The notes under the pieces were generated by a model, which was not told the DNA's origin, made no database searches, and saw nothing but the letters and a program-made list of their open reading frames with translations. A stretch of DNA of 64,000 bases from an uncultured Lacinutrix sp. (GTDB lineage: Bacteria; Bacteroidota; Bacteroidia; Flavobacteriales; Flavobacteriaceae): NCBI RefSeq assembly GCF_947500325.1, contig NZ_CANMRQ010000001.1:436001-500000 (forward strand), in the 5' to 3' direction. A program made the position numbers and the translations under genes. Positions 9,547-31,571 of the stretch are shown here, piece after piece. The first letter of the stretch is position 1. Each line of letters opens with the position of its first letter.

Positions 9547-9566
9547 TTTAATTAAAACATTTAATT

Positions 9567-11063: not shown

Positions 11064-11078
11064 GTAGTTGTTTTTTAG

Positions 11079-11110: not shown

Positions 11111-11116
11111 TTTAAA

Positions 11117-11350: not shown

Positions 11351-11392
11351 AAATTTTAATTGTTAATGCTTAGATTTTTTTTCAAAAGAATT

Positions 11393-11524
11393 CTAATGAC
11401 AACCACAATCATCAGTGCCGCAAGCTTTTTTTGTTTTCTTTTTCCAAAAAAACTTTTTAACCAAAAACAATAAAGCAAAAGCTAATGTTGTAAAGACTAA
11501 TATGTTTTGAATAATAGTGTTCAT
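11393..11524 (-). CDS. FeoB-associated Cys-rich membrane protein, 43 aa
   Basis: One N-terminal transmembrane helix (about 4-22, IIQNILVFTTLAFALLFLV), a strongly basic stretch (KKFFWKKKTKK), and a tail with three Cys and a final His (ACGTDDCGCH). This is the layout of the short Cys-rich membrane proteins found beside feoB in many Bacteroidota and Firmicutes. It lies 102 nt downstream of feoB on the same strand. A role in handling Fe2+ at the FeoB pore or in Fe-S sensing is proposed for the family but not proven. Confidence 0.75.
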   Translation of the reverse strand: MNTIIQNILVFTTLAFALLFLVKKFFWKKKTKKACGTDDCGCH

Positions 11525-11590
11525 TTTGTTTTTGTCGTGAAAAAATAAATAATTATACTATAAATTTAATGATTTAGTTTCATTTTATAA

Positions 11591-11625
11591 GATTGCCACG
11601 TCGCTAAATACTCCTCGCAATGACA
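11591..11625. repeat. Degenerate copy of a dispersed intergenic repeat
   Basis: Reads GATTGCCACGTCGCT, a short spacer, then CTCCTCGCAATGACA. I recognise this text as a repeat spread between genes in many Bacteroidota and other phyla, usually GC-richer than the host. It lies between feoB and the small Cys-rich gene and has no coding role. Confidence 0.55.
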
Positions 11626-11626
11626 A

Positions 11627-13726
11627 TTATTTTAAAAACTGATAAGCAATTAGAGCTGTTATATATGCAAAAGCCGTCATAATCACTAATTGGTAGGTTG
11701 GCCACTTCCAACTATTAGTTTCTTTCTTTACAATAGCCAATGTACTCATACATTGCATGGCAAAGGCATAAAATAAAAGTAAAGAAATACCAGAAGCAAA
11801 ATTATACAATGGTTTGCCAGTAATACTATTGATTTCGCCTGCCATTCGTTTGGTTATTGTCTTCTCATCGTCTGCGCCAACACTATAAATAGTTGCTAAT
11901 GTGCCAACAAAAACTTCACGAGCAGCAAAAGAACTAACAATAGCGATACCAATTTTCCAATCGTAACCTAAAGGTCTAATTGCGGGTTCTATAGCGCGAC
12001 CAGTAATACCAATAAATGAGTGTTCTAATTTATGAGAGGCTATTTTTTGCTGTAAATCGTCTTCAGATAAATTTTGAGAAGCGTATGCTTTTGTTATTAT
12101 ATCTTCAGCATTATTAAATTGTTCACCAGGACCATAAGATGCTAAAAACCATAGTACAACAGAGATTGCTAAAATAATTTTCCCGGCACCAAAAATGAAA
12201 GATTTCGTTTTTTCTATAACGGTTATCGCTACATTTTTAAATAAGGGTAATTTGTAGTTAGGCATTTCTACTACAAAAAAGGTTTTACTCTTTATTTTTA
12301 ATACTTTATTTAAAATATATGCTGAAAGAACCGCTGTACCAAAACCAATTAAGTATAATAGCATTAGGGTTAATGCCTGGTAGCCTAAACCTAAAAAGTT
12401 GCCTTCAGGGATAACTAATGCAATAATAATGAGGTATACAGGTAATCTAGCTGCACAGGTTGTAAAAGGCGTAACTAAAATGGTTATTAAACGTTCTTTC
12501 CAACTCTCAATATTACGAGTAGCCATAATAGCAGGAATGGCACAAGCAGTTCCAGAAATAAGAGGAACTACACTTTTACCACTTAATCCAAAACGACGCA
12601 TTATTCTATCCATTAAAAAGACAACGCGACTCATATAGCCACTTTCTTCAAGGACGGCAATAAATAGGAATAAAAACGCAATTTGTGGTATAAAAATGAC
12701 AACTCCTCCTAATCCAGGAATAATACCTTCGGCTAATAAATTAGTAAAAACACCAGCTGGTAATGAATTTTTTGTCCAATCGCTAAGAGTAGCAAAAGCC
12801 TCATCAATAAATTCCATTGGTATGCTTGACCAGTCGTATATGGCTTGGAAAATAGTTAATAGTATAACAAAGAAAATAGCGTAACCCCAAACTTTATGGG
12901 TTAAAATCCGATCAAATTTAGTGCGTAAATCTTTAGCTTGAGAAGCATCAATTGTTTGTCCTTTTTTTAATGTGTTATTAATAAACTGGTAACGTTTTAT
13001 GGTTTCTTTTTGTTGAAGCCTCTTAAGGTCACTTTTGGATTTAGTTTTAAAACTAGCGATAGCGTCAATTTCCTTTCTATCTGTTTTACCAAAATTCACA
13101 TCTTGTGTTATAACTAACCAAAGCTTATATAATAACTGATTTGGAAAGGCTTTACGCAATCTGTCGAAATAATCTACATCAATTTCAGAAGCATTTAAAC
13201 AAGGTGTTATAGACAGGTCTTTATAATTTGTAATAAGTTGTTTTAACTCTGTAATACCTTGGTTTTTTCGAGTACTTATTAATGCTATTTTAGTGTTTAG
13301 TTGCGATTCTAAATATGGAATGTCTAACGAAATACCTTTATATTTCATTCTATCGGCCATATTAATAACTAATAAACAAGGGATTTCAAGGTCTTTAATT
13401 TGTGTAAAAAGAAGTAAGTTACGCTTCAAGTTTTCTACATCACTTACCACAACTGCTACATCTGGAAAATCTTTATCATTACGATTTAAAAGTAGTTCAA
13501 TCACTACATTCTCATCTAATGAAGAGGCATTTAGGCTATAAGTTCCCGGTAAATCTATAATGTGGGCTTTAACACCACGCGGTAATTTACAAATACCTTG
13601 TTTTTTTTCTACAGTAATCCCAGGGTAATTACCAACTTGCTGGTTTAATCCTGTAAGGGCATTAAAAACTGATGTTTTTCCAGTATTAGGATTTCCTATT
13701 AAAGCGACATTTAACTGTTTACTCAT
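11627..13726 (-). CDS. feoB: Ferrous iron transporter B
   Basis: 699 residues, normal for FeoB. The N-terminal G domain has G1 GNPNTGKTS (residues 11-19), G3 DLPGTYS (about 58-64) and G4 NMAD, then a helical GDI-like region to about 270. The membrane part (about 275-699) carries the two Gate motifs, including the SGTACAIPAIMATR segment with the conserved Cys. It imports Fe2+ across the inner membrane with GTP hydrolysis in the N-domain. Its start overlaps the feoA end by 8 nt, so the two are co-translated. A DtxR/MntR-type regulator is encoded at 46-705 and may control it, although I could not find a convincing operator upstream of feoA. Confidence 0.97.
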   Translation of the reverse strand: MSKQLNVALIGNPNTGKTSVFNALTGLNQQVGNYPGITVEKKQGICKLPRGVKAHIIDLPGTYSLNASSLDENVVIELLLNRNDKDFPDVAVVVSDVENLKRNLLLFTQIKDLEIPCLLVINMADRMKYKGISLDIPYLESQLNTKIALISTRKNQGITELKQLITNYKDLSITPCLNASEIDVDYFDRLRKAFPNQLLYKLWLVITQDVNFGKTDRKEIDAIASFKTKSKSDLKRLQQKETIKRYQFINNTLKKGQTIDASQAKDLRTKFDRILTHKVWGYAIFFVILLTIFQAIYDWSSIPMEFIDEAFATLSDWTKNSLPAGVFTNLLAEGIIPGLGGVVIFIPQIAFLFLFIAVLEESGYMSRVVFLMDRIMRRFGLSGKSVVPLISGTACAIPAIMATRNIESWKERLITILVTPFTTCAARLPVYLIIIALVIPEGNFLGLGYQALTLMLLYLIGFGTAVLSAYILNKVLKIKSKTFFVVEMPNYKLPLFKNVAITVIEKTKSFIFGAGKIILAISVVLWFLASYGPGEQFNNAEDIITKAYASQNLSEDDLQQKIASHKLEHSFIGITGRAIEPAIRPLGYDWKIGIAIVSSFAAREVFVGTLATIYSVGADDEKTITKRMAGEINSITGKPLYNFASGISLLLFYAFAMQCMSTLAIVKKETNSWKWPTYQLVIMTAFAYITALIAYQFLK

Positions 13727-13952
13727 CTATTTTGTCAATTAAAATATGAATAGCAGTCTCTTTTCTAATGGCTAAATGGCTTCCATTAATATTTAAATAC
13801 ATGGGGTCTGCAAAAGGAGCGACTTGAACTAATTCTACATTATTGCCAGGTAAACAACCCATTTCTAACAATTTTAAAGGAATTAATTCTGAAGAAACAT
13901 CACTAATTATTCCCTTTTCACCACGTTTTAAATCTGCTAATGTATATTCCAA
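13719..13952 (-). CDS. feoA: FeoA-type SH3 protein
   Basis: 77 residues, a single SH3-like beta-barrel with the family signature LKRGEKGIISDV near the start and LLEMGCLPGNNVELVQ in the middle. FeoA is a small cytosolic partner of FeoB needed for Fe2+ uptake. First gene of the feo operon, overlapping feoB by 8 nt. Confidence 0.93.
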   Translation of the reverse strand: MEYTLADLKRGEKGIISDVSSELIPLKLLEMGCLPGNNVELVQVAPFADPMYLNINGSHLAIRKETAIHILIDKIDE

Positions 13953-14024
13953 GCTTATTTAGATTGATTTTAAAGAAGCAAAAGTAATGGAAAATAATAG
14001 GCTAAAAAAATTGTAATAGAAAAA

Positions 14025-14699
14025 CTACTGTTTCTCCATTCGTTTTAACTTTTTAATATCTTTTAAAAGTTGAGAAATAGCTTCTGGATCTGTACCATCA
14101 TAAAAACCGCGTATTTGACGCTTTTTATCTATTAACATGAAGTTTTCTGTATGGATCATATCGTATTTGTCACCATTACCAGTTGTTTTTACTGCCAAAT
14201 AGCTTTTTCGTGCTAGTTCGTAAATTTGTTTCTTGTCTCCAGTAACTAAATTCCATTTAGCATCATCTACGCCTTTTAGCTTAGCATATTTTTTTAATTG
14301 AGGTACGCTATCTTTTACAGGTGTTACACTGTGCGATAATAGCATAATATCATCATCATTTAAAATTTCTTTTTGAATGTCACGCATATTATCTGTCATT
14401 ATAGGGCAAATAGTTGGACATGTAGTGAAAAAGAAATCGGCTACGTAAATTTTATCTTTATAATCGTTTTGAGTAATTGTTCTTCCATTTTGGTTAATCA
14501 AGCTAAAATCTGCGATTTTATGATATTTTTTTACATGTTGAATCGTGCTGTCAACTAAAGTCCTATCTAAACTATCAGGATTATAAATAGGCAAAGGCTT
14601 TTCAACCTTTAAAATGGAATAAAAAATAGAAATAATAATTGCAGAAAGGATAAAAAAACCAATGGCAAATTTTTTATAATCTTTAAAAAAGGAAAGCAT
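14025..14699 (-). CDS. SCO1/SenC-family copper chaperone
   Basis: 224 residues. An N-terminal membrane anchor (about 11-30) is followed by a thioredoxin-fold domain with the copper-binding CPTIC (Cys94, Cys98) and the distal ligand His183 in MIHTENFML. In the family these residues bind Cu and help assemble the CuA site of cytochrome c oxidase, on the periplasmic side. All three ligands are kept, so it should be functional. It stands alone between feoA and rseP. Confidence 0.93.
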   Translation of the reverse strand: MLSFFKDYKKFAIGFFILSAIIISIFYSILKVEKPLPIYNPDSLDRTLVDSTIQHVKKYHKIADFSLINQNGRTITQNDYKDKIYVADFFFTTCPTICPIMTDNMRDIQKEILNDDDIMLLSHSVTPVKDSVPQLKKYAKLKGVDDAKWNLVTGDKKQIYELARKSYLAVKTTGNGDKYDMIHTENFMLIDKKRQIRGFYDGTDPEAISQLLKDIKKLKRMEKQ

Positions 14700-14867
14700 A
14701 AAACAAGTTTTGAATTGCTATTTTGCAAAAATACGACGTAAACAAACGATAAACCATTTTTTTCACTCATAAATAAAGGTTAAAACAGAAAGCAAAACAA
14801 TAATAGCTTTTTAAACTAAGTCTAAATACTTACTTTTGGGCGTTATAAAAATGAATAGAAGAAATAC

Positions 14868-16214
14868 ATGGAATTTGTAATAAAAATAAGTCAGTTTTTA
14901 CTGAGTCTTTCACTACTAATTATATTGCACGAGCTTGGACATTTTATTCCAGCTAAATTATTTAAAACTAGAGTAGAAAAATTTTACTTGTTTTTTGATA
15001 TTAAGTACTCATTATTTAAAAAGAAAATAGGAGAAACGGTATACGGTATTGGTTGGTTACCACTAGGAGGTTATGTTAAAATTTCTGGTATGATTGACGA
15101 AAGCATGGATACTGAAGCTATGGCAGAAGAGCCTAAGCCATGGGAGTTTAGATCTAAACCAGCGTGGCAACGTTTAATTATTATGCTTGGAGGTGTTTTT
15201 GTAAATTTTGTTTTAGCTTTAATTATATACATTTTTGCTGCATTTATTTACGGAGACACAAAAATTTCTGCTGCTAGTATACAAGATGGGTATTTAATAG
15301 AGAATCCTTTATTAACAGATTTAGGCTTTAGAACTGGAGACGATATTATTAAAGTTGGTGATTTTAAAGTTGAAAAGGTATCTGATATAAAAGGGCAGTT
15401 TATAGGAGCAGAATCTATAACAATTAAAAGAGATGGTGTAGAGCAGACTATTGCATTACCAGAAGATTTTTTAGGTCAGTTTTCAGATAGTAAAACTAGA
15501 GACTTGTTTGAAATGAGATATCCAATGGTGATTGCTAAAATCCCTGATTCTTCTTTAAACAAAGGCGTTAACCTTAAAGAAGGTGATATAGTTAGAACTA
15601 TTGGTGATAAGAAGTTGAAGTATATTGATCAATTACCTACTGTTTTAAATGAATTTAAAGATCAAGAAGTAGCTGTTACATTATTGAGAGGAGAAGAATT
15701 AATTACAGAAACACTAAAAGTTGATAATAATGCCAAATTAGGTGTTGTTTATTTTTCTGGTGCTGGTCCAAAAACAATGGAAAAGTTAGGGTATTATAAA
15801 ATGACAGTTGAAGAATATTCTTTTGGTGAGAGTTTTGGTGTTGGTTTAAATAAATTTACTGGACAAATAAGCTCGTATTTTGGACAATTAAAGCTAATCT
15901 TTAGTCCAAGTACAGGTGCCTATAAAGGAGTAGGAGGCTTTAAAGCCATTTTCGATATATTTCCAGACTTTTGGAGTTGGGAAGCTTTTTGGGGTATTAC
16001 AGCCTTTCTATCAATTATGTTAGGTGTACTTAACTTATTACCAATTCCTGCTTTAGATGGTGGTCACGTTATGTTTTTACTATATGAAATGGTTTCTGGA
16101 CGTAAGCCAAGTGATAAATTTATGGAGTATGCACAAACGGTTGGTTTCTTTATTTTAATAGCTTTAGTGCTGTTTGCCAACGGAAACGATATTTTTAAGG
16201 CAATTTTTAAATAA
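14868..16214 (+). CDS. rseP: Site-2 protease RseP
   Basis: 448 residues. HELGH at His21-His25 gives the zinc ligands, and LDGG at Asp397 supplies the third ligand region near the end. Two PDZ domains lie between them (about 115-290), followed by C-terminal helices. RseP cuts anti-sigma factors and signal-peptide remnants within the inner membrane. In this window there is a putative anti-sigma protein (1237-2028), but no sequence links the two. Nothing unusual; upstream there is a TACTTTTG -7-like box at 14831-14838. Confidence 0.96.
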   Translation: MEFVIKISQFLLSLSLLIILHELGHFIPAKLFKTRVEKFYLFFDIKYSLFKKKIGETVYGIGWLPLGGYVKISGMIDESMDTEAMAEEPKPWEFRSKPAWQRLIIMLGGVFVNFVLALIIYIFAAFIYGDTKISAASIQDGYLIENPLLTDLGFRTGDDIIKVGDFKVEKVSDIKGQFIGAESITIKRDGVEQTIALPEDFLGQFSDSKTRDLFEMRYPMVIAKIPDSSLNKGVNLKEGDIVRTIGDKKLKYIDQLPTVLNEFKDQEVAVTLLRGEELITETLKVDNNAKLGVVYFSGAGPKTMEKLGYYKMTVEEYSFGESFGVGLNKFTGQISSYFGQLKLIFSPSTGAYKGVGGFKAIFDIFPDFWSWEAFWGITAFLSIMLGVLNLLPIPALDGGHVMFLLYEMVSGRKPSDKFMEYAQTVGFFILIALVLFANGNDIFKAIFK

Positions 16215-16231
16215 AAAAATTAATTATTGTT

Positions 16232-16261
16232 TTGTAGAAACTAAAAAAGCTTTTATATTTG
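16232..16261 (+). promoter_or_regulatory. Housekeeping promoter of tRNA-Asn
   Basis: TTG at 16232-16234, 19 nt, then TATATTTG at 16254-16261. This is an exact match to the Bacteroidota primary sigma consensus TTG-N19-TAnnTTTG, ending 22 nt before the mature tRNA. Confidence 0.85.
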
Positions 16262-16283
16262 CGCTCGCAACAGCGAAAAACAC

Positions 16284-16357
16284 TCCTCCTTAGCTCAGTT
16301 GGTTAGAGCATCTGACTGTTAATCAGAGGGTCCTTAGTTCGAGCCTAAGAGGAGGAG
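16284..16357 (+). tRNA. tRNA-Asn (GTT)
   Basis: 74 nt cloverleaf. Acceptor stem TCCTCCT / AGGAGGA, D-arm with AGCTCAGTTGGTTAGAGC, anticodon stem TCTGA / TCAGA with loop CTGTTAA (anticodon GTT at 16318-16320), T-arm CTTAG-TTCGAGC-CTAAG and discriminator G. CCA is not encoded. Confidence 0.96.
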
Positions 16358-16369
16358 CAAGTTTAGAGA

Positions 16370-16395
16370 AGCCACTAGAAATAGTGGCTTTTTTT
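16370..16395 (+). terminator. Terminator of tRNA-Asn
   Basis: AGCCACTA / TAGTGGCT with GAAA tetraloop and a T-run, 12 nt after the tRNA. Confidence 0.88.
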
Positions 16396-16584
16396 ATGGA
16401 TTGAATTGAGTAAGACCTTTATGTTGAGTGGGATTGAATTTAACCTAAGAAGAATAATTATATGTAAAAGAAAAGTATCACTTTATGTGATGCTTTTGTA
16501 ATATGAATGATTATTATGGACACGAATTACAAATCCGCGCCATCGGGATTGTATACACTTTTTTATTTTCTAATCAAAATTTCA

Positions 16585-16601
16585 CTCGTCACAGACGAGC
16601 G
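16585..16601 (+). repeat. Short repeat CTCGTCACAGACGAGCG
   Basis: 17 nt, nearly self-complementary (CTCGTC / GACGAG). A copy with one change lies in the opposite orientation at 20280-20296, and a 10-nt piece at 20401-20410. The copies bracket the surface-protein, InsA-remnant and orphan-tip segment. Confidence 0.6.
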
Positions 16602-16714
16602 CTAGCTGGGAATGAAATGCCAAGTTTTAGATATTCTTCAATATCTCTATTTTAGCCTCTGTCCAGTAACTTTATTTGTAAGAACATGGGGTAAATGTAA
16701 TGCTTTTGTAAATA

Positions 16715-16741
16715 AAAAAGCACCCAGATAGAGTGCTTTTT
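16715..16741. terminator. Terminator of the S74-type surface protein gene
   Basis: AAAAAGCAC / GTGCTTTTT hairpin immediately after the stop codon (minus direction), with A/T runs on both sides. Confidence 0.78.
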
Positions 16742-16762
16742 AATGTATGTTTATTTATAGTT

Positions 16763-18691
16763 TCAGTCGTCTAAGTCGCTAGTTTCTGTGTTTAGAAAGT
16801 TCTCTATTTTTTCTAATCTAGCTTCTAAAGTTTTAATTTTTGCAGCTTCTTGTTTTAGCACATTATTCTCTTGTTTTAATTCTTGTATGGCTTTAATTAA
16901 TACAGGTATGAGCTCTGTATAGTTAACCGCTAAGGTATTTTTCTTATCGTCACTTATTGAAACTAAGTTTGCAATTATGGGTTGTACTTCTTGTGCAATT
17001 AGACCTAGTGATTTATGCTTTTTATTCTCCTTATTTTTCCAGTAGTATTGTACTGGGTTTAATGCTAAAATTTCATCTAGACCATATGTTATTTTCTCAA
17101 TATTTTTCTTTAACCTCCTGTCTGAAGAATGTACCAAAGCTCCACCTGCATAAATGTCACCACCACTTGGGTTTAAATATAAATCTGCCCAAGCATTTAA
17201 AGCATTATTATGAGCGCCAATAGTTGCATTATTATTTAAATTACCTATAACAACTCTGTTACCATTAACTGTTGGGCCAAAAACACCTGCAATCCATGAA
17301 GGATCTGAATTTCCAACTCCACTTCGTATCTCCAATGTTTTTTGTGGCGTTGCAGTACCAATACCAACATTCCCATTTTTTAATACAGTCATAGCATTTA
17401 ATCTATTTGAAGCGTTTGCACCATTTCCTATTTCAAACAGCGGGTCTGTAGCTACCCAACTACCTGCTGTTCCACCGCCAATATTATATTGTCCAATGCT
17501 TGTACCTGCAAAACTATTAGCCAAAGTACCAAGTCCCATAGCTGTTGAAATATTTCCTGAAGCAAAAGTACTAACTCCCATTGCTGTAGATTGAGTTCCT
17601 GTAGCTGCTGTTGTACTTCCCATTGCTGTTGAATTCAATCCTGAGGCCGTTGAGTTAAATCCCATGGCTATTGAAGACGATCCGCTTGCTCCATATCCAA
17701 AACTATTACTTTCATCAGAAAGACTTAAATCTAAAGCATTTGAACCGATTGTTGCGTGTAAAGAAGGGTTTCTACCAATTAACCTCCAACCTGTTCCATT
17801 ACCCTCATCTATAGCTTCTAAACCTCTACCATAATTAGTATCTGCATATTCTTTAGTGATTAAGGCTCTGGCATTTGTAATTTCAGATATATCAAATGAT
17901 GGTGCTATTATAGTTCCATTTTTTAATACGCTTAAAGCATTGAATCTAAAATTTCCAATTCCTAGGCTATTACCTATTTCAAATATAGGATCTGTTGGAA
18001 TCCAAGTATTTGGTGAACCACCACCAAAATTATAACTACCTATGGCAACAGAATTTAAAGATTCAGCTCTTGTATTCTGTCCCATTGCTAGAGAATAGTC
18101 GCCTGAAGCAGTTGTATTCCTACCTATTGCTATTGAAGATCTTCCAGTAGCTCCATAAGAAGAGCTTACCTCATTAGGGGTACTTAAATCTATAGCATTT
18201 ATACCAATATTACCATGGTTAGCTTGGTTACTTCCTATTAATCGCCAACCTGTATTTCCTCCTTCTGTTATTTGTTCTAAACCACTAACATTATCAGCTT
18301 CTATTGCATTTAAAGCATAAGGTACACTCATCAACTGTGAAGTACCTATATTGGTATATGTAGTACCTCCTGAAATATCAACTCCAATTTCTAAAAAATA
18401 AATATCTGTGTTCCAATCAACACTTGTAAAAGTATCTGTAGTTGTTCCTTGACCTATCACTACATTAAATGCACCATAAGCATTTGTTGTTGGCGTATGT
18501 GTTTCTGTGTAAACTATAGTTCCTGTAGAAGTAGTTTGCCTAATTTGAAACTGAACACCTATACTAGTATTGGCTAATATATCTCCTGCATTATCTCTCA
18601 CTACAGATTGATAATTAAAACCTTGAGGAGCTTGGGAATAAGACAAACTAAATATAAAAAAGAATAAAACTGAAAGTACACTAGTCTTCAT
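16763..18691 (-). CDS. Tail-fibre-like surface protein with S74 chaperone domain
   Basis: 642 residues. Signal peptide ends at SYSQ (about residue 19), followed by a Bacteroidota N-terminal domain (PQGFNYQSVVRDNAG). Two YadA-head-like blocks (around 175-225 and 325-400, with SxAMGxxTxA repeats) are each followed by a block naming a flat beta region. Near the C-terminus is HSSDRRLKKNIEKI, the start of an S74 intramolecular chaperone domain (about 530-600) that trimerises and self-cleaves in phage fibres, then a coiled coil. The two repeat blocks plus nearly matching texts (EGNTGWRLIGSN and EGNGTGWRLIGRN) show an internal duplication. Probably an exported trimeric fibre. Confidence 0.82.
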   Translation of the reverse strand: MKTSVLSVLFFFIFSLSYSQAPQGFNYQSVVRDNAGDILANTSIGVQFQIRQTTSTGTIVYTETHTPTTNAYGAFNVVIGQGTTTDTFTSVDWNTDIYFLEIGVDISGGTTYTNIGTSQLMSVPYALNAIEADNVSGLEQITEGGNTGWRLIGSNQANHGNIGINAIDLSTPNEVSSSYGATGRSSIAIGRNTTASGDYSLAMGQNTRAESLNSVAIGSYNFGGGSPNTWIPTDPIFEIGNSLGIGNFRFNALSVLKNGTIIAPSFDISEITNARALITKEYADTNYGRGLEAIDEGNGTGWRLIGRNPSLHATIGSNALDLSLSDESNSFGYGASGSSSIAMGFNSTASGLNSTAMGSTTAATGTQSTAMGVSTFASGNISTAMGLGTLANSFAGTSIGQYNIGGGTAGSWVATDPLFEIGNGANASNRLNAMTVLKNGNVGIGTATPQKTLEIRSGVGNSDPSWIAGVFGPTVNGNRVVIGNLNNNATIGAHNNALNAWADLYLNPSGGDIYAGGALVHSSDRRLKKNIEKITYGLDEILALNPVQYYWKNKENKKHKSLGLIAQEVQPIIANLVSISDDKKNTLAVNYTELIPVLIKAIQELKQENNVLKQEAAKIKTLEARLEKIENFLNTETSDLDD

Positions 18692-18742
18692 ATCAATGTT
18701 TTAAGGTTGATAGTATCAAAGATATAAATAAAACAATAACTA

Positions 18743-18979
18743 TCAGCAACTTACCTCCGTTCCACAAGAGATATTTAAAACTCTAGAAATACCTTGTACA
18801 CTACAACTTTCTTTTAGTAATGATTTAATTAAACTATTTGTGTTTTCATTATAAGCTTTATAAGTATAATACAATTGAAATCGCTTATTACAAACTTTAC
18901 ATTTGTAACGTTGTTTTCCTTTTTGAAAACCACTTTTTACTGAATATTCATTACAATCTGGACAATATACTTTTTTCAT
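18743..18979 (-). pseudogene. IS1-type InsA-like fragment
   Basis: 78 residues with a zinc ribbon (CPDC at 6-9 and CKVC at 27-30) followed by the RFQLYYTYKAY segment and an HTH (LLKESCSVQGISRVLNIS), matching the N-terminal ORF of IS1-family elements. It then ends abruptly in an unrelated CGTEVSC tail, and no InsB-like catalytic ORF or terminal repeat is present. It is a truncated remnant between the surface protein and the orphan Rhs tip, and marks past rearrangement. Confidence 0.7.
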
Positions 18980-19090
18980 ATCCTAATTTGAAATACTACC
19001 AATTTTGGCCATAAAATAACACTATTTTGTCTTTTAGAGTTATTTTTAAATACTAATAACTCCTTATTTTATTGCATAATAAACCAATTT

Positions 19091-19201
19091 GATTACTATC
19101 CCTTTGGGATGCTACTTCCTGGTAGACACGGTAACTCCTCAGACTATAGGTATGGCTTTCAAGGACAAGAACTAGATAATGAAATTAAAGGTGAAGGGAA
19201 T
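19091..19201 (+). repeat. 111-nt inverted repeat, copy 1 (start of the orphan Rhs tip)
   Basis: Identical, in opposite orientation, to 21348-21458 inside the main Rhs gene; the flanks on both sides differ at once. It encodes the same residues in the same frame ([11 protein letters not shown] through DNEIKGEGN). Confidence 0.93.
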
Positions 19202-20227
19202 AGTCATAATTTTAAGTTTAGAATGTATGATTCGAGAATTGGTAGGTTCTTTGCTATTGATCCTCTATACAAAGAATATCCTCATAATTCTCCTTATGCT
19301 TTTAGTGAAAATAGGGTAATCGATGCAATTGAATTAGAAGGTGGAGAAAAATTGATTGTTGCTAAAACTAGTGAGCCTATACCTAATCAACGTTCAGGAA
19401 GAGCAAAAATCACAATAAAATTAGATTACAAAGTGTTAGTCGATAATGCAATGGGAGGACTCAATAGTGCAGATATTGATCCTAAAGCATTTAGCAAAAG
19501 GTTTTCTGATGGAAATTATACTGACTATATGATTACATTACCAACTTCTGATACTGAAGCTCAATTTTTAGAAGGAAAGCAGTTAGTATGGGCTCAAAAG
19601 GCAAATGATTTTAAAGGGCGTAACCAAGAAGATAGAGCAAAGTATGCAAAAAAACTTACTGAAAGTGGAGTAACGTCATACTATAAGGTGGAAGTTGAAT
19701 ATGATGTAACCTTAACAGCCGAACAAAAAATTAGAGAGATGATTAATTATATGAAGGGAGATCCTAAATCTAGAGGGATAATTATGAATAAAATGGCCAC
19801 TACTGGACAATTGACACAATTGTATAAAATGGCAGATATAACAGGTAATGATGGTTTAAAAACATTATATACATTTGCTAGAAAATTAAATAGTCATTTT
19901 GATCCAAATACAGGTGGAGCTGCTGTTTCTGAGGGCTATTTAGCAACTGAAAACACACAAGGGTTGCCAGACTATAATTTTGTATATATAAATAGTGATA
20001 GAAAAGCTGGAGGGTTATCATTATTAGATATTATGGTTCACGAAGGTGGGCATAATATGGCAAAAATACATAAACATACAGAAGATGGTGATGGAGATTA
20101 TGAATATAATCAAGATGGTTTGCAAGGGAACAACACAGAAAAAAGAACAAAAATACGTCCTACAAGACAAAATTCGCGAAGTATAATAAACGATGGAACG
20201 AATAGATCAACAATTGAAAATAATTGA
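19109..20227 (+). CDS. Orphan Rhs C-terminal tip with metzincin-like motif
   Basis: 372 residues from the first ATG, which is an internal Met of the Rhs core, so there is no natural start and probably no expression alone. Residues 1-31 are identical to the main Rhs protein; the core then continues with [19 protein letters not shown] and the tip begins at about 75. The tip carries [11 protein letters not shown] (His311, Glu312, His315, His321), which has metzincin zinc spacing but Ala in place of Gly. The final 50 residues are polar. No immunity-like gene is seen. I read it as a silent tip cassette that DNA inversion at the 111-nt repeat could join to the main gene. Confidence 0.75.
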
Positions 20228-20279
20228 TTTTATTTACTTTTACTAGCTTAATGACAAACTCAATATTTTCCCCTGCTAT

Positions 20280-20296
20280 CGCTCGTTTGTGACGAG
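20280..20296 (-). repeat. Inverted copy of the CTCGTCACA repeat
   Basis: On the minus strand CTCGTCACAAACGAGCG, one base different from 16585-16601. It lies between the two convergent Rhs tips; a further piece CTCGTCACAG is at 20401-20410. Confidence 0.55.
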
Positions 20297-20322
20297 TAAC
20301 CTCAATAAAGAGTAAACAAATT

Positions 20323-20352
20323 AAAACCTTTACATTTCTGTAAAGGTTTTTT
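20323..20352 (+). terminator. Terminator between the two convergent Rhs tips
   Basis: AAAACCTTTACA / TGTAAAGGTTTT with a 4-nt loop and T-rich tail. It is symmetrical enough to serve both the orphan tip and the main Rhs gene, and would stay in the correct place after inversion. Confidence 0.75.
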
Positions 20353-20426
20353 CTTTTAAGTTAAAAGCACGGTAACTCAGAGTAATTATATAATACATCA
20401 CTCGTCACAGGGAAAATATAATATAA

Positions 20427-23400
20427 CTAATTTTTATCTTGAGCAACATATTCTTTTATTGTTTTGTATATAACTTCAATTTGATCATTTCTTAATTCTA
20501 AGGTTGTTTTTCCTGTTTCAATATCATCTTCCATCTGAAGTTTTAATAATAGATACTCTCCTTCTTGCCCCATGTTCATAATATTTTTAGCAAGAATTCT
20601 TGTAGCACTATTTGGTTCATTAAAAGTATTATTTTCCATTTCTTTCTCGGATAATCGCCATAATTTTTTTATAGATGGTATTTGTTTTACAAGTTTTCCG
20701 TTGGCATCTAAACTATAATCATCATAGGTATGAAGTAACCCCAATAGATGAGCTAACTCATGAAAAATTACATTGGCTGCATTATCAATATCTTCTTCTT
20801 CATAAGGCAAAAGGTCATTTGGATCTAGCCAATCTACTGTAAACTGACCAAGTGTTTCATCTGATATATAAATTTTATCTCCTTTGATGTTATTAGCTAT
20901 AGCAACGAAAATACCATTTTCTATTTGTTGTTTTGTAGCTTTATTTTCAGCAATCAACATTTCATTAAACTCTTTTTTAGGCAAAAAAAGAATTTCGTAA
21001 CTAGCATCATTATCTATGACTACTGCTCCTTCTAATTGATTATGATTTGGAGTATTAATTTCTTTAGATAATTCAGTTTTAAACTTAATTTTTAATCCAT
21101 GAAGAATTTTATCTATAATTTCACTATTTATCTTGGTTTTATTAGTTACCTTAAATTTAACTCCAGCAACTAGTGTCCTTCCTTTAGTTTTTATAAAAGG
21201 CTGTAAACCTTCCATTTCGAAAGCATCAACAACTCTATTTCCAGAAAAGGCATAAGGTGAATACCAATTATATATAGCCTCCATAGGATCCACTGCAAAG
21301 AATCTACCTACTCTTGGGTCATGCATTCTAAACTTATAGTTAATAGAATTCCCTTCACCTTTAATTTCATTATCTAGTTCTTGTCCTTGAAAGCCATACC
21401 TATAGTCTGAGGAGTTACCGTGTCTACCAGGAAGTAGCATCCCAAAGGGATAGTAATCATTGTATGCTTTTACATCTGTATTAAAGTAGGCTAAAGTACT
21501 TCCTGTAAAGGTTGGAATTTTTACATCGCTTACTACACTTAGTACATTACCTAAATGGTTAGATAATTCATAATTTTTATCACCAACTCTTTTAGTATAG
21601 CTTCTTTTTACCAAATCATCTGTAAAAATACTCGTTGCCCAAGCGAGTTCATTTTGGCTAAGATTAGCTGTAGCTCCTTTTTCTGAAACTAAAGTTTCTG
21701 CTTCTGTTTCAAAATTAAAGGCATCTGCATAGGTATTACCATTAATGGTTGTGCTATAAGCTATGTCTTTTATTTGAAACTTGTTTGCATATTCTCCGCC
21801 AATAATAGATTGTATAGTGGTATTAATAGTCGCTGGAGCTGGAATGCTATTAATAGACATTGTAACACCGTTATTTAAATTATAACTTTCGTTATTTATA
21901 GCAATAGTAATATCAAAGGTTGTGTTTTTTAATTGTGTAAAGTCTATAGCGATACCGTCTTGTTGCATTTCTGTTTCTGTAATACCAATAGTATGGTCTA
22001 GCTCAGCTTTAAGTATATAATGAAAAGCATTAGCCATAACAGAGTGTCCATAAAATACAGGTTTGTATTTGCCTTCGCTTTTCTTTAAGAATATTTCTGT
22101 ATAATTTTCTCTACTAGTATTATTACTAGTTGCTGTATTAACAAAACCTAATTTTGCTACTCTAATAGAATCATTCTCTTGTAAAGGTTCTAGTAGCTTT
22201 ATTTTTGTATTTATTATAGATGATGTTATTGGTTCATGATCTAATGCAGAGACATTGTCTATAGTAAAATCTATAGTATTGTTTGCTCCTAGCTCTAAAG
22301 CAACTGTTGTATCATTATCACTTGTTAGGCTAGTAGATTTTGAATCTTTATTAGATACATAATTCTCGATACCTAATCTGCTACTACCATAAATATGATG
22401 TTCTTTTATTTTATACGATGTATAATCATGATTGTCAAATTCTTGACTTGTAGCGTTAGTTTCGAAAACACTTAAAACGTTACCTTGTGCGTCACGTGCG
22501 TATCGTGTACTAACAACGCCAGTTTTACTTATTACTGTTTTTGCTATTCGGTTACCTAATCCATCATAATCAAATACAATAGTTTCTGCTATTTTATTTG
22601 GAAAACCTTCAGGGTACTTTTGTATTCTATCGACTTTACCATCAACTCGCCATTTAATGTGTATACGTTCTGTTTTGTCTTGTATTAATTGTCCTATCTC
22701 ATCGTACACATAATTATGACTATTAGGGTCATCTTCACTGTATGTAATTCCTAAAAGATCTTCTTGGTCATCTATATCTACATCAAAATTAGTGGCAGCA
22801 ATAGCATCTTTTACTAATTGTAATTGGTTAGTTTTCGATTTGTATTTATAGGTAAATTGATCCATTGGGATTACTGCATTCCCTTTTACAGTTCTAGACA
22901 ACTCGGTTAAATTACCATTTCTATCATAACTGTAACTAGAAGCATAACTATCTCTATAAGCCGTTGTAGAACTACTTTCGAAAGCTTTAGAGGTCATACT
23001 TTTAATCCTATTAAGCTGGTCGTATTTGTAACTATTTAGTTGCGTGGCTAGCATAACATCTTCTTGCTGCCTTATACTAGTTACCATCTTTTTAATATTA
23101 CCATTGTATAAATTAGGACTGTTATCGAAGGTGCTATTACTAGAAAGACTAAAACTACTAGAAGTATTACCTATAGAATTATAATCACCATTAAAATAAC
23201 TTAATGAATAGCCAAAAGCATCTTTAGCAACTAAAGCATTAGCAAGCGCAAGACCATCTTTTCCAATATCATTATTTGCATCTCCTATATGCTCTCCGTT
23301 TACAGATTTTAGCCAGCCTTGAAGCGTGTACATATAGTCCATACCTTGTACTTTTTTATCTCCAATTTCTGTTCTGGCTAATGGGCCATGTTCATAGTAT

Positions 23401-26400
23401 TTATAAGACGCATCTTGCTCCCATATAACATTATCTTTAGAAGTTTCTACACTAGTAATTCTATTATCTGCATCGTATTTATAACGATGTATAAATTGGT
23501 CTAGCTGGCCTTTTTGATAAGTAACTTTATTGACATTACCGCTAATTAAATCATAATCGTATGCCACTCGTTTTAGGTGTTTGTTAAAACTATTAGGAAT
23601 GTTTATATCACTATAAAAATTAACTAACTCATTGACATTACCATGTATATCGTAATTATAAAAAATACCATTGTTAAAGACTGGTTTTAGTGTTAATGTA
23701 GAAAAACTATCATAGTATAGAATGGCACTCACTCTATTGCGTAGTGTATGCGGATTAAATGCAGTAAATAGCTGTGCTGAATTACTATAATTAGATACTG
23801 CAACGGTAGGTAAGTTTATTGCTTTATCATAAAACGTCTTTGTAACTTCTGTTCTTAAATGATTAGCATTAAATACATTAATAGGGTTAGATAGACCTGT
23901 GTTATACAGTCGTCCTTCATTAGAAATGGTATACGTTTCATATGGTGTATGTACTTCTCCTGCTTCAATAATTCTGCCTAATCCATCATAATTTGTATAG
24001 CTGAAACGATCTTTAGCTTGATCCTCTCCATCATAGCCTACGAAATTTAAATCATGTATTTTACCTCCGTTAAATACTAAATTGGCACGAATATCCATAG
24101 GTAAGCCAGGATGAGATTCCTCGTAAGTTAAATAAAGCGTATTATTTATATAATAATTAATATCTCCATTTAATCGCTCAACTTTAAGTTTATCTCCTAC
24201 TTGCAAATAATACTGTGATGGCGGTGTAATTAAACTTCCAGAATTTCCTACTCTAGCTACACGTAAGGAAGTATTAGTACTATTGGTATAAGTATACATA
24301 AAATAACTAGGCAATCGAGAGCCTCCATAATTACCTAATCCTTTTGTTCTATCTACATAACTTAATCCAAGTGCTACGGCTTTATGAGCTTGAAAATCGC
24401 TAGTAATGGTACGCTCTACATACCCATTCCCGTATAAGATATGAGTTTCATCTATACCAGATGTACTCCAAGTTCCTGGGCCAGTTTTTTCTATATTTTT
24501 ACCGTCTTGAGAGATAGTAACAGTTCCGGCTACATCTTCTTTATAAGTTAAATCGGTATATAAAGCAGCTTGCTTATCGTTCTGTGACGCAATTATTCTG
24601 CCTAAATCATCGTAAGCAAATCGAGTCACACCGCCATCTGGTGTTTTTTGCCATACTAATTGGTTTAAACTATTGTATTTGTACTTAGTGTCTAGAGTGT
24701 GTTCTGGTAAGGTGTTTTGATGGTTTGGATTATTATTATCTGGTGTTACTCTAGCCTCATCTAATGCGGTTTGAAAATCAGTAGTAAATTCATCATCTTC
24801 AAATCGATCAATACCTTCTGGAGACACCGTTTTTACTAAGTTGCCAGCTTGGTCGTAATAATATAATGTGTATTGATACTGTTTGTCTTTATAGGTCATG
24901 GTAGCTTGTTCTTCAATGTTACTCATGGCCTCAGCAATATAATCTTGTTTAAATTGCTCTTTTAATGTGTTTAAGTAAGTGTAATACGCATCTCCTGCAT
25001 AAGTATTGCTTACATTAAAGGCAAACTCTTGGCAATTGGTTTGTGGATCTTCTATAAATATATTTGAGGTAGGAAACAATGGTGCTGGTGGACATATTCC
25101 TGGATTAGCAACCATATAAATTGTAGCGATGTATGCACCCCAATTAACATCACCACCATTATCTACATAATTTTTATAATCTGTAATCGCACTTGCATAA
25201 TTATCATAACCATAATGCAATTGTGTAGCCCCAAACTCTGCAATACTTATAAATTGTGCATGTTCAACACTTAAAGTGCCATTTGTAGCAAATGCCTCTA
25301 CATAACTGTTATAACCATCTACGATATAGCTAAAATTTTGATTACAGAAATACTCTTCTGTCATTGGGTCACCAGGATTGTCTCCTTCTGGAATAGTCGT
25401 GTAATCTTCTAATTTTGGTAATACAGTGTTTATAAAAAAGGTGTGTTTTTCATTACAAGACACGGGTGCTATGGTTTGAGGAGTACAAGGTTGTTCACAA
25501 TTATCTTGATTAATATAATTAGGTAAATCGATTTTTTTATCAGAATCACTTATTATATCTTCATATACTATTTCATTACGTAAATTATTAGAAGGATTAT
25601 ACCAACGACATGAAATCGCATAACGATTTACAAGAATTACGGAAAAAGTACAATTAGAGATATTAAAACTTAAATCATAGTAAAACTCATTGCCTTCATT
25701 GGCAACTGAACCATCGTTAAAGAAAGCTAGAGCAGTTTCTACATTATTAATATTAGAACGAAGACTAAAACTTAAAAAGTTACTTGGGTTTCCATAATAA
25801 GTTGAAGATGGTAAATCATATGAGGTTACTTCATTATAATCAAAAAATGAAAATAAACCATTAGTACTAGAAGAAACATTATTGGACATCAAAAAATATC
25901 TATTGCTTCCAGATGTTGTTTCAAATTTTATAGCAAAGAAAAATTTATTTGAACAAGTAATGTGTTCTCCTGTAGTAGGTATAATATATCTAGTTTTTAT
26001 TTTAACAAACTCCGCATTATCGATTGATTCATCGTTAAGATTTGTATTATTTGAAAATTTAAAAAATTCTCTTAACGATTCAGGAATAACTATAGATTGT
26101 GGGCCATTATCAGATAATATATGAAGACTATTATTATAAACACTATTGTATAAATCAATAAATCCATTTTCTATGTCTGTTTCTGTGATACCATCCGTCT
26201 CTATAAAACTTTGACAAAAGGAATTTTCGCAATTATCTTCACTATCATATGGGCAATCATCGCAATTATCAGGAGTTCCATCTCCATCCGTATCAATTGG
26301 ACCATCACAAGTACAATTCGTATCGGGATTATTAGGGCATGGATCACATAAATCAAAAATACCATCATTGTCACTATCTATATTACCACATTCACAATTA

Positions 26401-29400
26401 GGATCTGGGTTATTTGGGCAATCATCACAAAGATCAGGTATGCCATCTCCATCAGTATCGTCTAATAAAACTTCTCCAGGTCCTGTATAATCATTAGTTC
26501 CTAAACCGCATTCAATTCTTGCAATTGTTTTTCCTTGTAATATTACTTCAGTAACACCATCACTTAAAGTTGCTTTAACTTTAAAAGTAAACTGTTGTGT
26601 TATGTCATTATAAGAGTTGGGTACATAATAGACATCACTCATGTGTGCAATTGCATCTACTGCCCATAGGCTATCCCAAGTATGTCCTGGTGTAACTGGG
26701 GCAAAATCTGTAATAATATTAGAGAGATTTGGGTTTGTAAAATGGATACTTAATGCATTATTACTAAATGAAGCTGTTATTTGTAACGGGCCGTTATTTG
26801 GGATTGCTCCTCCAACATCTGTAAATAAATCAGGACTTAAAAAATGACCATTAAACTGTGTGCTACTATTTGTAGGATCTAAGTAACTCTGGCCGCTAGA
26901 TAACTGTGTTGTTGCTAAGCCATTTAAGAATATTTCAAGATCTGTAACTAAAGGACATTGCCCCGTTTGCGTATAAATTTCTATATCCACCTGATCTTCA
27001 ATATTATCTGCTATGTCTTGATTAGAATCGTTAGAATTGTATAAAGCATCTACGGGTATATAACGTTTACTTTTTATGTTATAGTTTGATGCACTAGTAC
27101 TACTACATAAACCATCATTTACACCACTTACACTAACGCTGTGTACAACACTGTAATCTCTTATAACATCTAGTATAGAATTAGGTGTTGTTGCTGTTTC
27201 TATACAGCCATTATAAGCATTTTGCTCTATGGTATAATAATTAAGTAATACATATTGTAACTTTTGTTTAAGCGATAAATAGTAACTTATGTAATAGCTC
27301 CATATATCGTTTTTAGTTTGTTGAGACAAACTAGTATTAGTATTTGTTGGTGTACTTGGGCTATTAAGCATCCCTATAAAATTAGATGGGATTTGGCATA
27401 CATCAATACTATTACAATAAGCCGTTTCAAAAGCGAATTGTAGCATTGTTTTTTCAGTTTTGTCATAGCCATAGCCTGGATTGTTATGTTCCAAAGCTTC
27501 TAACATTACATCGTTTTTAAGTGCAATTAATGCTGGATCATCTAAACTTACGCCTTGCCCAAAATATGGATCTTGATTAAAGAGGTCTAATAAATCGTTA
27601 CTGTTAGATGGTATAAGATTCGCTGTTTCTGCTCCTTCAAAATCTAAAGACCTTAAATAGTCATCAAAACCATCAGTATTTATAGTGTTACCATTTGTGA
27701 GTTGACATAATGCTTTACTATAATTGTAGTACACATATTCTGGATGGTATTGTACTAAAGATTCTGCCCAATGTACTCGCCACAGATTTATAAAATCGTC
27801 TGCATTTTTTAAATGTTGTGGTTCTACCCATAGTGTTTCGTTATTTCCTTGTGTAATAGTAATTACTGTAACATTATTATCAATTTCTGGACTATAAGTT
27901 TGTGTTTCTTCGTCATAAATTATTTGTGTTAAGGCAACATCTCCAGCGGTAGTAAAATAATGATTAGGAGATAGTCCTTCAATTAATCCTCCATTTCCAG
28001 AAGGTGCTACTCCTGTTAGTTTATAATGTTTAGGTGTTTTCCAATTAAAATCACCTGGATTACTATTAGGAAATGCTGGATATGCTAATTGGTTGTCTTC
28101 AGAAAAAATATTTGTTTCTGTTTGTATGTTTACTGGTACTAATACTTGTTCTCCATCAGCATTTGTATAATATTCTGCACCACCATATTGCCCGTTTGGT
28201 TGCATATCCCCTAACATAAAATTAAGTCCTACACTACAAGATGAGGATTCGTATTCACCGTTAGGATCAGGGTCTATAAAAATACCATCATTAGAACAAG
28301 GCGCTGTACATGTTGCATAGAGCTCGTTCCATTGTTGCTCTAATGTACTGGTTATAAGTGCTTGTAAATCTATATCTATACTACCTGGTGCCCAAGGATT
28401 AGGAAAACCACTATAATTTACGCCATCTGTACCAACAGTAAGGTTAAAATAATCTTGAAATGTAGGAAGGTCTGGGTTAGTAGCCTCATCATCCCAGTTG
28501 TTCCAACCAACTATATTGTATAAGCATTCACCACAACTTGTAAAACATTGGTCTTCAATATTTACTTCAGGAAACGGAATACAACCAGTATCTGCATTGG
28601 TTATTTTAGAAATATAATCGTTAGCAAAATAGTCTAGTGCTTGTTGGTTGATTTTTAAATCCTTTTTTATCCCAAAGTTTCCTATGTTAAAAGGTTGTAG
28701 AGAACTGTTACCATTAGCTAACGCAGTACTTGAGGTATAATTTTCGGTATTATTAATGTCTTGTTGTAATACAAATGGAGTGCCATTTAGAATTTGTGAT
28801 GGATCAAAGTCTCCAATAGTCGTTTTGTATGCAATGCCTCCATTTCCATTCTCGTCTGCTAGAATTAAATGTCCAAAACACTCATTAGTAATATCGGTCT
28901 CGAAATCGAAAACAAAAGGATAACCACTATTATCTGGTAAACAGCCTGTCGTGAATCCCTTTTTATAGGTTAAATTATAGGTGGTTTCATATTGGCTTCC
29001 GTTTAGTGCATTAAATTTTTGTACTTCGTATAATGTACCATCTTGCAGTATACCATAATTACCTGTAGCGTAGTTTTGATTTTCTGCACTATTACTATTA
29101 AACAATTCTACAGTAACTACTTTGTGAAGCTCATCATTATCTTCATCTTCTAAGCCTATTAACTGTGATGGGTTTTCTCCAGAAAGTGCTGTTGCTATTG
29201 TTCGTCCTTGTGGATCTATATAACTAATGCTTATTTGCCCATTTGGATCTATTACTGCATTTTTTTTATAATGTTCACTATAACCTACACTATAGCCAAA
29301 TAAGCGATCTAGTTCTTTTTGTTCTGGTGTTGTGTAATAGTATTTCATTTCATGACCAGAACCTAATTGATGTGTATAGCCTACGCCACTTTTTCTAGCT

Positions 29401-30818
29401 ATTCTACCTGTATTATCTGGTGTGTATTCTATTTGTGAAAAAGGATAAGACTCACTGCCTTCAACAGCATTAGGGATAAATGGTGTAAATGTTGATTCTG
29501 AGTTATTTTGAGGAGAGTAATAATATCCTGAACCGCTTGAAGGGTTTAGTCCATTAACATCTGTTTCACAAGATTGTTCTGCGGCTGTTATGTTCCAATC
29601 GAAATCCTGATGTGTATAGGGTATTGGTCCTTGTATTGAACTTTCAGGACTTAAGTTAAAATTAGAATAATAACTTAATCCATTCTCACTATTAATTGCT
29701 GGTACTGGTAAAATTTCTACAGCTGGTCGTCCTTGATTATCATAAATAACTTCACCTACAATGGCATTATCATCGCTATTAATTTTAGTAACAGTTTGCC
29801 TATTTCTTAGTGTTCCATCAAAATAACTGACAACTTCTTTCTTTTTGCCTTCTTCGGCATAACTGGCTTGAAATTGCCAGTTTTTATTTGGTTCTGGATT
29901 TGTTATTTGTATTTTACTACTCCAAGTATCAACTGTTCCATTTGGAGTAGCAGTATATGACCATGAGCCATATTTTTTTACTGAAATATCTTCTAGAAAC
30001 ACACCTACTGCACGTACTCTATAAGCTATATATCCATTAGAATATATATTTGGTAAAGCATAAGAGGTGTTTTTGGTATTTATTCTTGTGCTATTATGCT
30101 TAAACATGAGTTCTGATAATTGAATATCATTTGCAGCTCTTTCATTATCGTTATCACCATAGTTGTCTACCCAAGTCCACTCTAAGTCATAGCTTATAGC
30201 GCCATTTATAGGTTGCCAGTCTATGTTAATTGTATTTGTAACAGCATTGGTTAAAGGATTTGGGTTACCTTGTTGTAATTCATAATAGCGCTCCACCCTA
30301 AGTCCTGTTTCCATTTTTATACTTTCTGGCGTAATAGTGGACAAAGTTTCATTTTCTACATCTTCGTAAGTTACGCTAAGTATTACAAAGCTTAAATCTG
30401 TTACATTTTCAATCTCATAGACATACATATCCTTAAATGTACCTGCATTGGAGAACGGATTATACTCTATAGTCAATGTTTTATTAAAAGCAGGCCTTGA
30501 TGGTGTTAAAGGTGTTATTTTAACCTCCATACTATATTTGTAATGTTCATTTAATGGCACATTGTCATCTGCCCATATTTTAATATAAGAGGATGCTTTT
30601 GTTGTTGTAAATAGAGTGCTAATAGTCTCATCTGAGATAGTATAGCTAGCAGATTGCTGCGGTTGAGGCTGAGGACTAACCGCTTCTATTTCATCACTGT
30701 TATAAAAACGTTGGTCTATAATAGTTTCTTGTGCTTTTGATAGCTGAATACAACAAATAGCGACTAATAGTAGTATTTTACTATTGAGATGTGTTAATGA
30801 TTTAAAGAATGTATGCAT
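20427..30818 (-). CDS. Giant secreted RHS-repeat protein with metzincin-like tip
   Basis: 3463 residues. Signal peptide ends near QLSKAQ (about 30). A long beta-rich N-terminal part has fibronectin-like segments. About 1450-1530 holds thrombospondin type 3 calcium-binding repeats ([27 protein letters not shown]). YD/RHS repeats run from about 1980 to 3100, and the RHS core follows at about 3118-3193 ([30 protein letters not shown]). The variable tip is about 3194-3463, with [11 protein letters not shown] (His3353, Glu3354, His3357, His3363) and a Met pair at 3414/3416 as a possible Met-turn: an apparent metzincin. It ends a five-gene operon. The YD shell should encapsulate the tip, as in polymorphic toxins. 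The 111-nt core segment is repeated inverted downstream. Confidence 0.92.
21348..21458 (-). repeat. 111-nt inverted repeat, copy 2 (inside the main Rhs core)
   Basis: Perfect inverted match to 19091-19201, at codons for residues about 3121-3157. Inversion of 19202-21347 between the copies would replace the main tip with the orphan tip, in frame. Confidence 0.93.
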
Positions 30819-30823
30819 AACGA

Positions 30824-31558
30824 TTATTTGTTTGTATTTCTATTGATTAATCTATAACTATTGTATTTTTTAATAGGCTGTAGTTGAGAACTATTAGTAT
30901 CTACATAACTATCTATGTTTAGTTCATTTCCAATAACAGGATGATCCTCTACTTTTTTTATTTTGATTTCTAGGAACTTTCTTGAATTATTATATTCTCC
31001 CTTTTCATCCTTAATTCTACCCGGAGTTACTAACTCAATAGTTTGTTTTTGTAGACTATATGTTTGTTTATTGAAGGTTAGAGTAATACTACCATACGGC
31101 AATTGTGTTAATTTTGGAACAGTTAATACACAGGTAATACTATTGTCTTCAATAGACATTTTTTTTGTAGCAAAATATTTGAGGTAATTTTCTATCGCTA
31201 TTGGATTTTGGATTAGAGTATTATCATTAATAGTAGTATATTCCATAGCTTTTTGCTTATGATTTATCTTAATGAAAGTACTACCAGTAGTTAACATTTC
31301 GGTAGTATTAATTTTAACATAAGTATCCTTATCTTTTTTTATTAATACGCCTAGATATTTATCTATAGTTATTGGTTCTTTTTTATTCCTGTATAGTGTG
31401 TATTCTAGAGCTACTTTATAATCTGAATTATCGACAAATTGCGCTTGAGATTTATTAAAAACATCAATAATGTCTTGGTCTGTGTATTGAGCAACAGCTT
31501 GTTTAGTACAGATAAAGCATACAAGCATGAGAACGATATTTTTTAGCTTATTTTCCAA
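30824..31558 (-). CDS. Periplasmic protein of unknown function, 244 aa (LolA-like fold possible)
   Basis: The open frame extends to 31627, but that would overlap the end of the 554-aa gene. A TTG at 31558, 13 nt after that gene's stop, gives a proper signal peptide ([19 protein letters not shown]), so I take it as start. The mature part is beta-rich with a pattern typical of lipid-carrier LolA-like folds (tested substrate unknown). A 5-nt gap to the giant Rhs gene shows tight co-transcription, so it probably assists export, surface placement or folding of the Rhs partner. Confidence 0.6.
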
Positions 31559-31571
31559 GGTGTTTCGATTT

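Follow-up and report, generated by a model that had tools for sequence, protein, structure and literature searches.

The window analysed here, a stretch of 64,000 nucleotides (nt) from the genome of an uncultured Lacinutrix sp. (G000:C1:436001-500000), contains a gene for a giant Rhs protein and, facing its 3' end on the opposite strand, an alternative C-terminal tip that is apparently silent. The two tips are enclosed by an inverted repeat, and the subject of this report is the candidate invertible switch that these elements make up. In window positions, its main parts are the following:

19091..19201, + strand: arm 1 of the inverted repeat, heading the orphan tip; it encodes the last part of the Rhs core (DYYPFGM...) and matches arm 2 at 111/111 nt
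19091..20227, + strand: reading frame of the orphan tip, with no start upstream of the core fragment; the tip domain occupies 19346-20224
19202..21347, no strand: segment between the arms, predicted to invert, with both tips tail to tail; inversion was observed in relatives only
20427..30818, - strand: full-length rhs gene, 3463 amino acids (aa), with DUF6443, RHS repeat and an Rhs core domain at residues 3122-3204
20430..21203, - strand: present tip, 258 aa, with a zinc-peptidase-like HExxHxxGxxH motif whose ligand positions are identical in the window and two relatives
21348..21458, - strand: arm 2 of the inverted repeat, within the full-length rhs gene; 111/111 nt identical to arm 1

Direct comparison of 19091-19201 with the reverse complement of 21348-21458 gave a match at all 111 positions, far above chance, which rules out a chance origin of the repeat. 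The original prediction of a perfect inverted repeat around two facing tips is thus borne out, as is its claim that the repeat lies in frame in both copies, given that both arms translate to the same Rhs core peptide in the same reading frame. The immediate divergence of the flanks, also predicted, was found on one side only: outside the arms, the identity is at the background level (11/30 nt) and the edge is abrupt, whereas at the inner edge the identity falls only to 73% (47/64 nt in the next inner stretch, then 11/25 nt further inward), because the Rhs core runs on for ~20 codons. A repeat finder applied to the window reported the same inverted repeat as 175 nt at 91%. The full-length protein is recognizable as an Rhs protein by PF05593 (43.6 bits, cut-off 22), DUF6443 (32.6, cut-off 27.8) and TIGR03696 (34.9, cut-off 32.5), and the orphan frame also matches TIGR03696 (38.8 bits, cut-off 32.5). 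The orphan frame extends without a stop for 33 codons upstream of 19091, but its first ATG, GTG or TTG, at 19109, is the Met codon of PFGM inside the repeat, so the orphan lacks a start of its own, as had been proposed. With a core fragment, a tip and no start upstream, it has the makeup of an orphan Rhs-CT module, although the immunity gene that belongs to such a module was not found behind the tip: no open reading frame (ORF) follows it, and the stop codons of the two tips are 199 bp apart.

The same genome carries a second convergent Rhs pair (L005), which consists of a full Rhs gene (1265-10819, +), a convergent orphan tip (14388-13348, -) and an inverted repeat of 103 nt at 79%, with a tyrosine recombinase gene (14532-15566, +) directly behind the orphan. 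This recombinase, encoded at G000:C1:155531, 299 kb from the window locus, is the only copy in the genome (sole match at E <= 0.001) and belongs to a conserved family of ~350 aa found with Rhs genes in many Flavobacteriaceae. Its assignment to the tyrosine recombinases follows from the phage-integrase domain (PF00589 at 1.7e-15; two members score 55.6 and 57.7 bits, cut-off 27.1) and from R177, H291, R294, H317 and Y327, which are invariant in 7 recombinase sequences and which we take to be the R/H/R/H/Y residues of this superfamily. Comparison of the recombinase profile, by sequence, with solved structures gave no match at E <= 1e-5.

The family survey covered 299 genomes, the window's own genome included in both counts, with thresholds of E <= 1e-8 for the Rhs core and E <= 1e-60 for the recombinase. 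The core was found in 71 genomes and the recombinase in 12, all 12 of which are among the 71 (P 1.5e-8). In a draw from the phylum, 6 of the 395 genomes encode the recombinase, 4 of them in the same family; in the two outside it, the enzyme is 37-42% identical to that of the congener G006 and likewise adjoins arrays of Rhs tips. Species genomes were scanned once with the recombinase profile, which yielded 79 loci, by their titles mostly from Flavobacteriaceae (a lower bound; two peptide patterns were used), of which 77 were examined, L159 and L160 having been dropped because only pieces of the recombinase matched there. The commonest layout, seen at 48 of the 77 loci, has a core end on each side of the recombinase pointing inward at it; a core end points at the recombinase from the left only at 13 loci and from the right only at 3, one locus is arranged otherwise, and at 8, as in the window's genome, the recombinase lies just behind an outward-reading tip. 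Counted singly, the core ends to the left of the recombinase are 89 on the + and 8 on the - strand, and those to the right are 72 on the - and 1 on the + strand. The carrier Rhs genes have ~3100-4500 codons. Among the 48 convergent loci, the full-length gene (recognized by an open frame of >500 codons before the core, within the stretch examined) is on the left of the recombinase in 12 and on the right in 11, with no qualifying core end in 25; this near-even split favours turning of the segment, as the full-length gene should occupy one constant side if the segment had never inverted. Contigs whose ends fall within the repeat (at both ends in 8/79 loci) show only that assembly is broken by repeats and were not used as proof.

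Inversion proper was observed in relatives. In the congener G006, a convergent pair encloses a homologous recombinase between its tips, and contig C2 (21,783 bp) of this assembly aligns over the full length to the chromosome C1, positions 1-8625 and 13972-21783 on one strand and 8364-14233 on the opposite strand. The inverted middle block of 5.87 kb is turned at the core repeats and is 99.97% identical, with no substitution and 2 gaps. The outer blocks contain 97 mismatches, 96 of which fall within the repeat past the crossover; the rest of the flanks (~16 kb) has 1 substitution, and 28 of the 35 gaps in these blocks lie near a run of at least 3 equal bases, which is a lax test. C2 resembles a thinly covered long-read contig and would come from the same strain as C1. 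The tips are exchanged crosswise, with 100% identity over 400 nt: the carrier is joined to tip A in C1 and to tip B in C2. Pairs of loci from sister species were defined as matches of >300 nt at >88%, and orientation was read in the four whose match passes from the segment into the flank; three are inverted (L104/L150, L092/L093 and L099/L105) and one is not (L101/L157).

These opposite states bear directly on the possibility that the second tip is no more than a silent orphan cassette of the ordinary kind, displaced once, its inverted position being accidental. Silent orphan Rhs tips are indeed known, according to the accessible portions of two reports (PMC3967940, PMC3150448), and the absence of a flip in the window's own assembly would agree with a static leftover; nevertheless, both states occur in relatives, and for this reason we rejected the static orphan, which we consider most improbable. 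The distribution of convergent pairs points the same way, as 10 of the 15 tip clusters of recombinase-positive genomes contain one vs 1 of 15 in recombinase-negative genomes (Fisher test, P 0.0017; clusters counted by hand, among the matches listed), and so does the condition of the orphan tip. The orphan tip matches a tip in a Maribacter recombinase element (L130) at 66% over 295 aa, with 59, 47 and 139 differences at first, second and third codon positions (283 codons); the present tip matches a tip in another recombinase element (L100) at 60% over 267 aa, with 78, 36 and 115 differences (257 codons), numbers that are approximate, the L100 tip having been taken 30 nt past its end. With an open frame and differences mostly at third codon positions, the orphan tip does not look decayed.

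We therefore consider it very probable that the C-terminal tip of the giant Rhs protein can be switched reversibly at the window locus, through site-specific inversion by a tyrosine recombinase. Under this mechanism, the Rhs-dedicated recombinase encoded 299 kb away, beside the second convergent Rhs pair, would act in trans on two inverted sites, one in the DYYPFGM codons of the full-length gene and the other at the start of the silent tip; on turning of the segment, the silent tip would be fused in frame to a carrier of ~3100 residues, and the tip in use would become silent. Because inversion loses nothing, the switch could reverse. From the sequence comparisons we infer that the recombinase family would catalyze inversion at these loci, that it would act on the window locus and that this locus would invert; the tips are likewise putative toxins, and the Rhs protein is presumably exported. 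The idea of a tip switch by inversion was already part of the original prediction and gains support from the comparison of related arrangements, in which both orientations are found (in G006, in three of the four sister pairs and in the 12:11 split) rather than one throughout; for the window locus it would hold by extension. The dedicated recombinase family and the shortness of the crossover interval could not be seen when that prediction was made.

The crossover interval comes from L104 (Flavobacterium sp. P3160) and L150 (F. circumlabens), two loci that share 99.96% identity in the inner segment and have swapped flanks. Within the 21-kb stretch there is no full-length rhs gene, so that two silent tips changed places there; the recombinase ORF of L150 is shortened to 286 aa, and accordingly the L150 copy may be locked. 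The only sequence common to all four junctions is CTTTTGGAATGCTGGTACC, 19 contiguous nt, which sets the crossover interval at 19 nt in this one pair; the left ten bases remain with the flank and the right part travels with the tip. Homology places the corresponding segments in the window, where a flank motif was also noticed:

19060..19080, + strand: degenerate copy of the flank motif GTTCTTnTATATATTGAT, common upstream of orphan tips (likeness by eye)
19101..19119, + strand: putative crossover segment in arm 1 (CCTTTGGGATGCTACTTCC), placed by homology to the 19 nt of L104/L150
21430..21448, - strand: putative crossover segment in arm 2, placed in the same way

When full genes were compared with inverted orphans (36 pairs, drawn from 32 loci after exclusion of orphans at the edges of contigs), identity stepped from ~0.3 to ~0.9 at GATTACTATCC, at the same base, and faded after ~100 nt. 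The orphans are variable before position +10 and yet nearly all share CnTTnGG, in keeping with a crossover at +10 or later. Upstream of 71 of the 119 orphans there is a GTTCTT, in most cases at -32/-31 or -15/-14 relative to the core fragment, compared to 2.7 expected in base shuffles, and 12 of the 36 full genes have it at -15.

Homologous recombination by RecA between the 111-nt arms could also invert the segment, the recombinase family then being concerned with something else. The window itself, with a long perfect repeat and no recombinase gene at the locus, would suit such a process, as would L058 and L059, where perfect stretches of 191 and 96 nt occur and no recombinase is found in the 19.5-kb stretch. 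However, the 19 contiguous nt shared by the L104/L150 junctions are short for RecA, homology begins at nearly the same base across loci, and the recombinase lies between the converging core ends in 48 of 77 loci; we judge RecA an improbable agent. The 111-nt identity in the window exceeds the length of the site and is longer than the reaction requires in L104/L150; we read it as the product of a recent homologous exchange or of a recent origin of the pairing.

A role closer to that of an integron, in which the recombinase mainly inserts tip cassettes or moves them between Rhs genes and mobile islands and inversion is a by-product, appears possible but doubtful. It would account for the direct array of 9 core ends that adjoins the recombinase in G145 and for the L104/L150 element, which is without a full-length rhs gene in 21 kb and lies near genes that by eye are mobilisation-like and second-integrase-like. 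The commonest layout is nevertheless convergence on the recombinase (48/77), and the comparisons made, in G006 and in the sister pairs, revealed no rearrangement other than inversion.

Several observations weigh against the switch as proposed. The recombinase gene is absent at the window locus, and in the window's own assembly (4 places only), a search for the alternative orientation found none, so that a single orientation is seen. The opposite state in G006 comes from an assembly contig, C2. Among the matches listed, the recombinase-negative genome G266 has a convergent pair, and the recombinase-positive G125 and G145 have direct tip arrays, of which inversion gives no account; 4 of the 77 loci have no core within the stretch around the recombinase. 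TAC encodes the first Tyr of DYYPFG in 31 of 34 full genes (two of the 36, lacking DYY, were dropped) vs 27.5% TAC elsewhere in the same genes, but by our count TAC is also present in 6 of 8 full copies from recombinase-negative genomes, and because these genomes mostly share it, we give little weight to a constraint at the DNA level. Finally, a partner ORF follows the tip in 158 of 166 tips examined, whereas the window tips have none, and the locus therefore may be a worn-down member of its kind. In the relatives of both window tips, an ORF with a signal-like N-terminus comes after the tip, and the recombinase comes next; these partner ORFs gave no match in the window's own genome at E <= 0.1, in a search that had no positive control. 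It would thus appear as if the partner ORF and the recombinase were lost from the window by a deletion between the tips, while the site, the long perfect repeat and two open tips are retained. With the single recombinase copy sitting at the second convergent pair, 299 kb away, the window locus would have to be served in trans, and such action is plausible because G206, among the matches listed, has three convergent pairs and one recombinase.

Both window tips contain an HExxH motif, whose His and Glu positions are kept in the aligned relatives (two for the present tip, one for the orphan), and on these motifs they may be zinc peptidases. A Pfam search of the tips gave no family above the cut-off, M10 and M12B appearing below it in the present tip, and the structure models of both tips were too poor to be of use (mean predicted local distance difference test, pLDDT, 41.0 and 34.6). 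Of the predicted terminator between the tips, the hairpin itself was found, although it carries little numerical weight, as the scan found 2 such hairpins vs 1.2 expected in shuffles:

20323..20350, both strands: terminator-like hairpin between the two stop codons

Some further features of these loci are recorded here. A LolA3-family gene lies directly upstream of both Rhs genes of the genome (window 30824-31627, -; L005 542-1240, +) and is perhaps linked to the route of Rhs export. On the other side, the switch adjoins a gene for a fibre protein with YadA-head repeats and an endosialidase-chaperone domain (window 16763-18691, -), and near the orphan tip there is an IS1-family transposase remnant (78 aa of the N-terminal part; window 18743-18979, -), which scores below the IS1 cut-off and above that of a zinc-binding domain model. 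REP-like palindromes occur between the convergent tips of L005 (11197-12995; GCTCGTCTGTGACGAGTGAC), with a similar stretch, by eye, at ~20270-20410 in the window; two small ORFs found with these palindromes in L005 resemble REP-associated transposases. The two-tip element of L104 (6887-8098 and 13306-18344) and L150 (3085-8123) adjoins genes that by eye are relaxase-, primase- and second-integrase-like, and a methylmalonyl-CoA epimerase-like gene (also named by eye) is near the element both in L104 and in L005. Long direct arrays of Rhs core ends include 9 in G145:C36 (L072), with a recombinase, and 5 in G084:C54 (L067, L068), without one at the threshold used.

Beyond the single locus, we lean towards the existence, in Flavobacteriaceae, of an Rhs tip shufflon in which a dedicated recombinase acts on a site concealed within the DYYPFGM codons and can serve, in trans, several convergent pairs of a genome. 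If so, n convergent pairs would give up to 2^n weapon sets per clone with every tip kept (two pairs here, three in G206 among the matches listed, with one recombinase each), a lineage could take up another weapon tip and still keep the previous one, and clonal populations of these bacteria would be mixtures of weapon types. The system is open to direct test because there are 79 loci, a 19-nt crossover interval in one pair and one candidate enzyme. In the open-licence PMC literature, as represented by listings and the starts of abstracts, we found no account of Rhs tip inversion by a recombinase.

The nearest mechanism appears to be the R64/ColIb-P9 shufflon, whose recombinase is Rci; the likeness is one of mode of working, and neither kinship with Rci nor membership is claimed. 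In that system, as described in the available part of the source, invertible DNA supplies alternative C-terminal segments to the constant N-terminal part of pilV, the system has a tyrosine recombinase gene of its own, and inversion selects the tip (PMC3414803). The switch proposed here would share the constant N-terminal part, the invertible alternative C-termini, the tyrosine recombinase and the selection of the tip, but it differs in its carrier, a chromosomal Rhs gene of ~3100-4500 codons, in its toxin-like tips, in the ORF that usually follows the tip and in the location of the site in the DYYPFGM codons. Enterobacteria such as Salmonella and E. coli have, by the accessible portions of two reports, a full-length rhs gene and a silent downstream tip fragment that keeps a piece of the core, usually without a start (PMC3967940, PMC3150448). 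Use of the orphan was proposed to occur via homologous recombination over 522 bp after a duplication (PMC3967940), which is needed because the recombination event would delete the main immunity gene (PMC3967940, PMC3150448); in the portion available of one of these reports, a change of warhead by simple recombination would remove the old immunity gene and the modules between, with duplication as the way out (PMC3150448). Inversion would be another way out of this difficulty, as both tips and all that lies between them stay. The window locus resembles the enterobacterial modules in its full-length rhs gene and a silent tip with a core fragment and no start; unlike those, which are downstream, its orphan is inverted, switching would lose nothing, and a recombinase goes with the system. 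Finally, Mpi of Bacteroides fragilis and RecV of Clostridioides difficile each serve several loci, turning switches and polysaccharide loci, according to the part of the source that is accessible (PMC5903667). The proposed service of several loci by one recombinase is a feature in common with these systems, but here the end of a protein would be exchanged, and Mpi, in contrast to the enzyme described here, is of the serine type.

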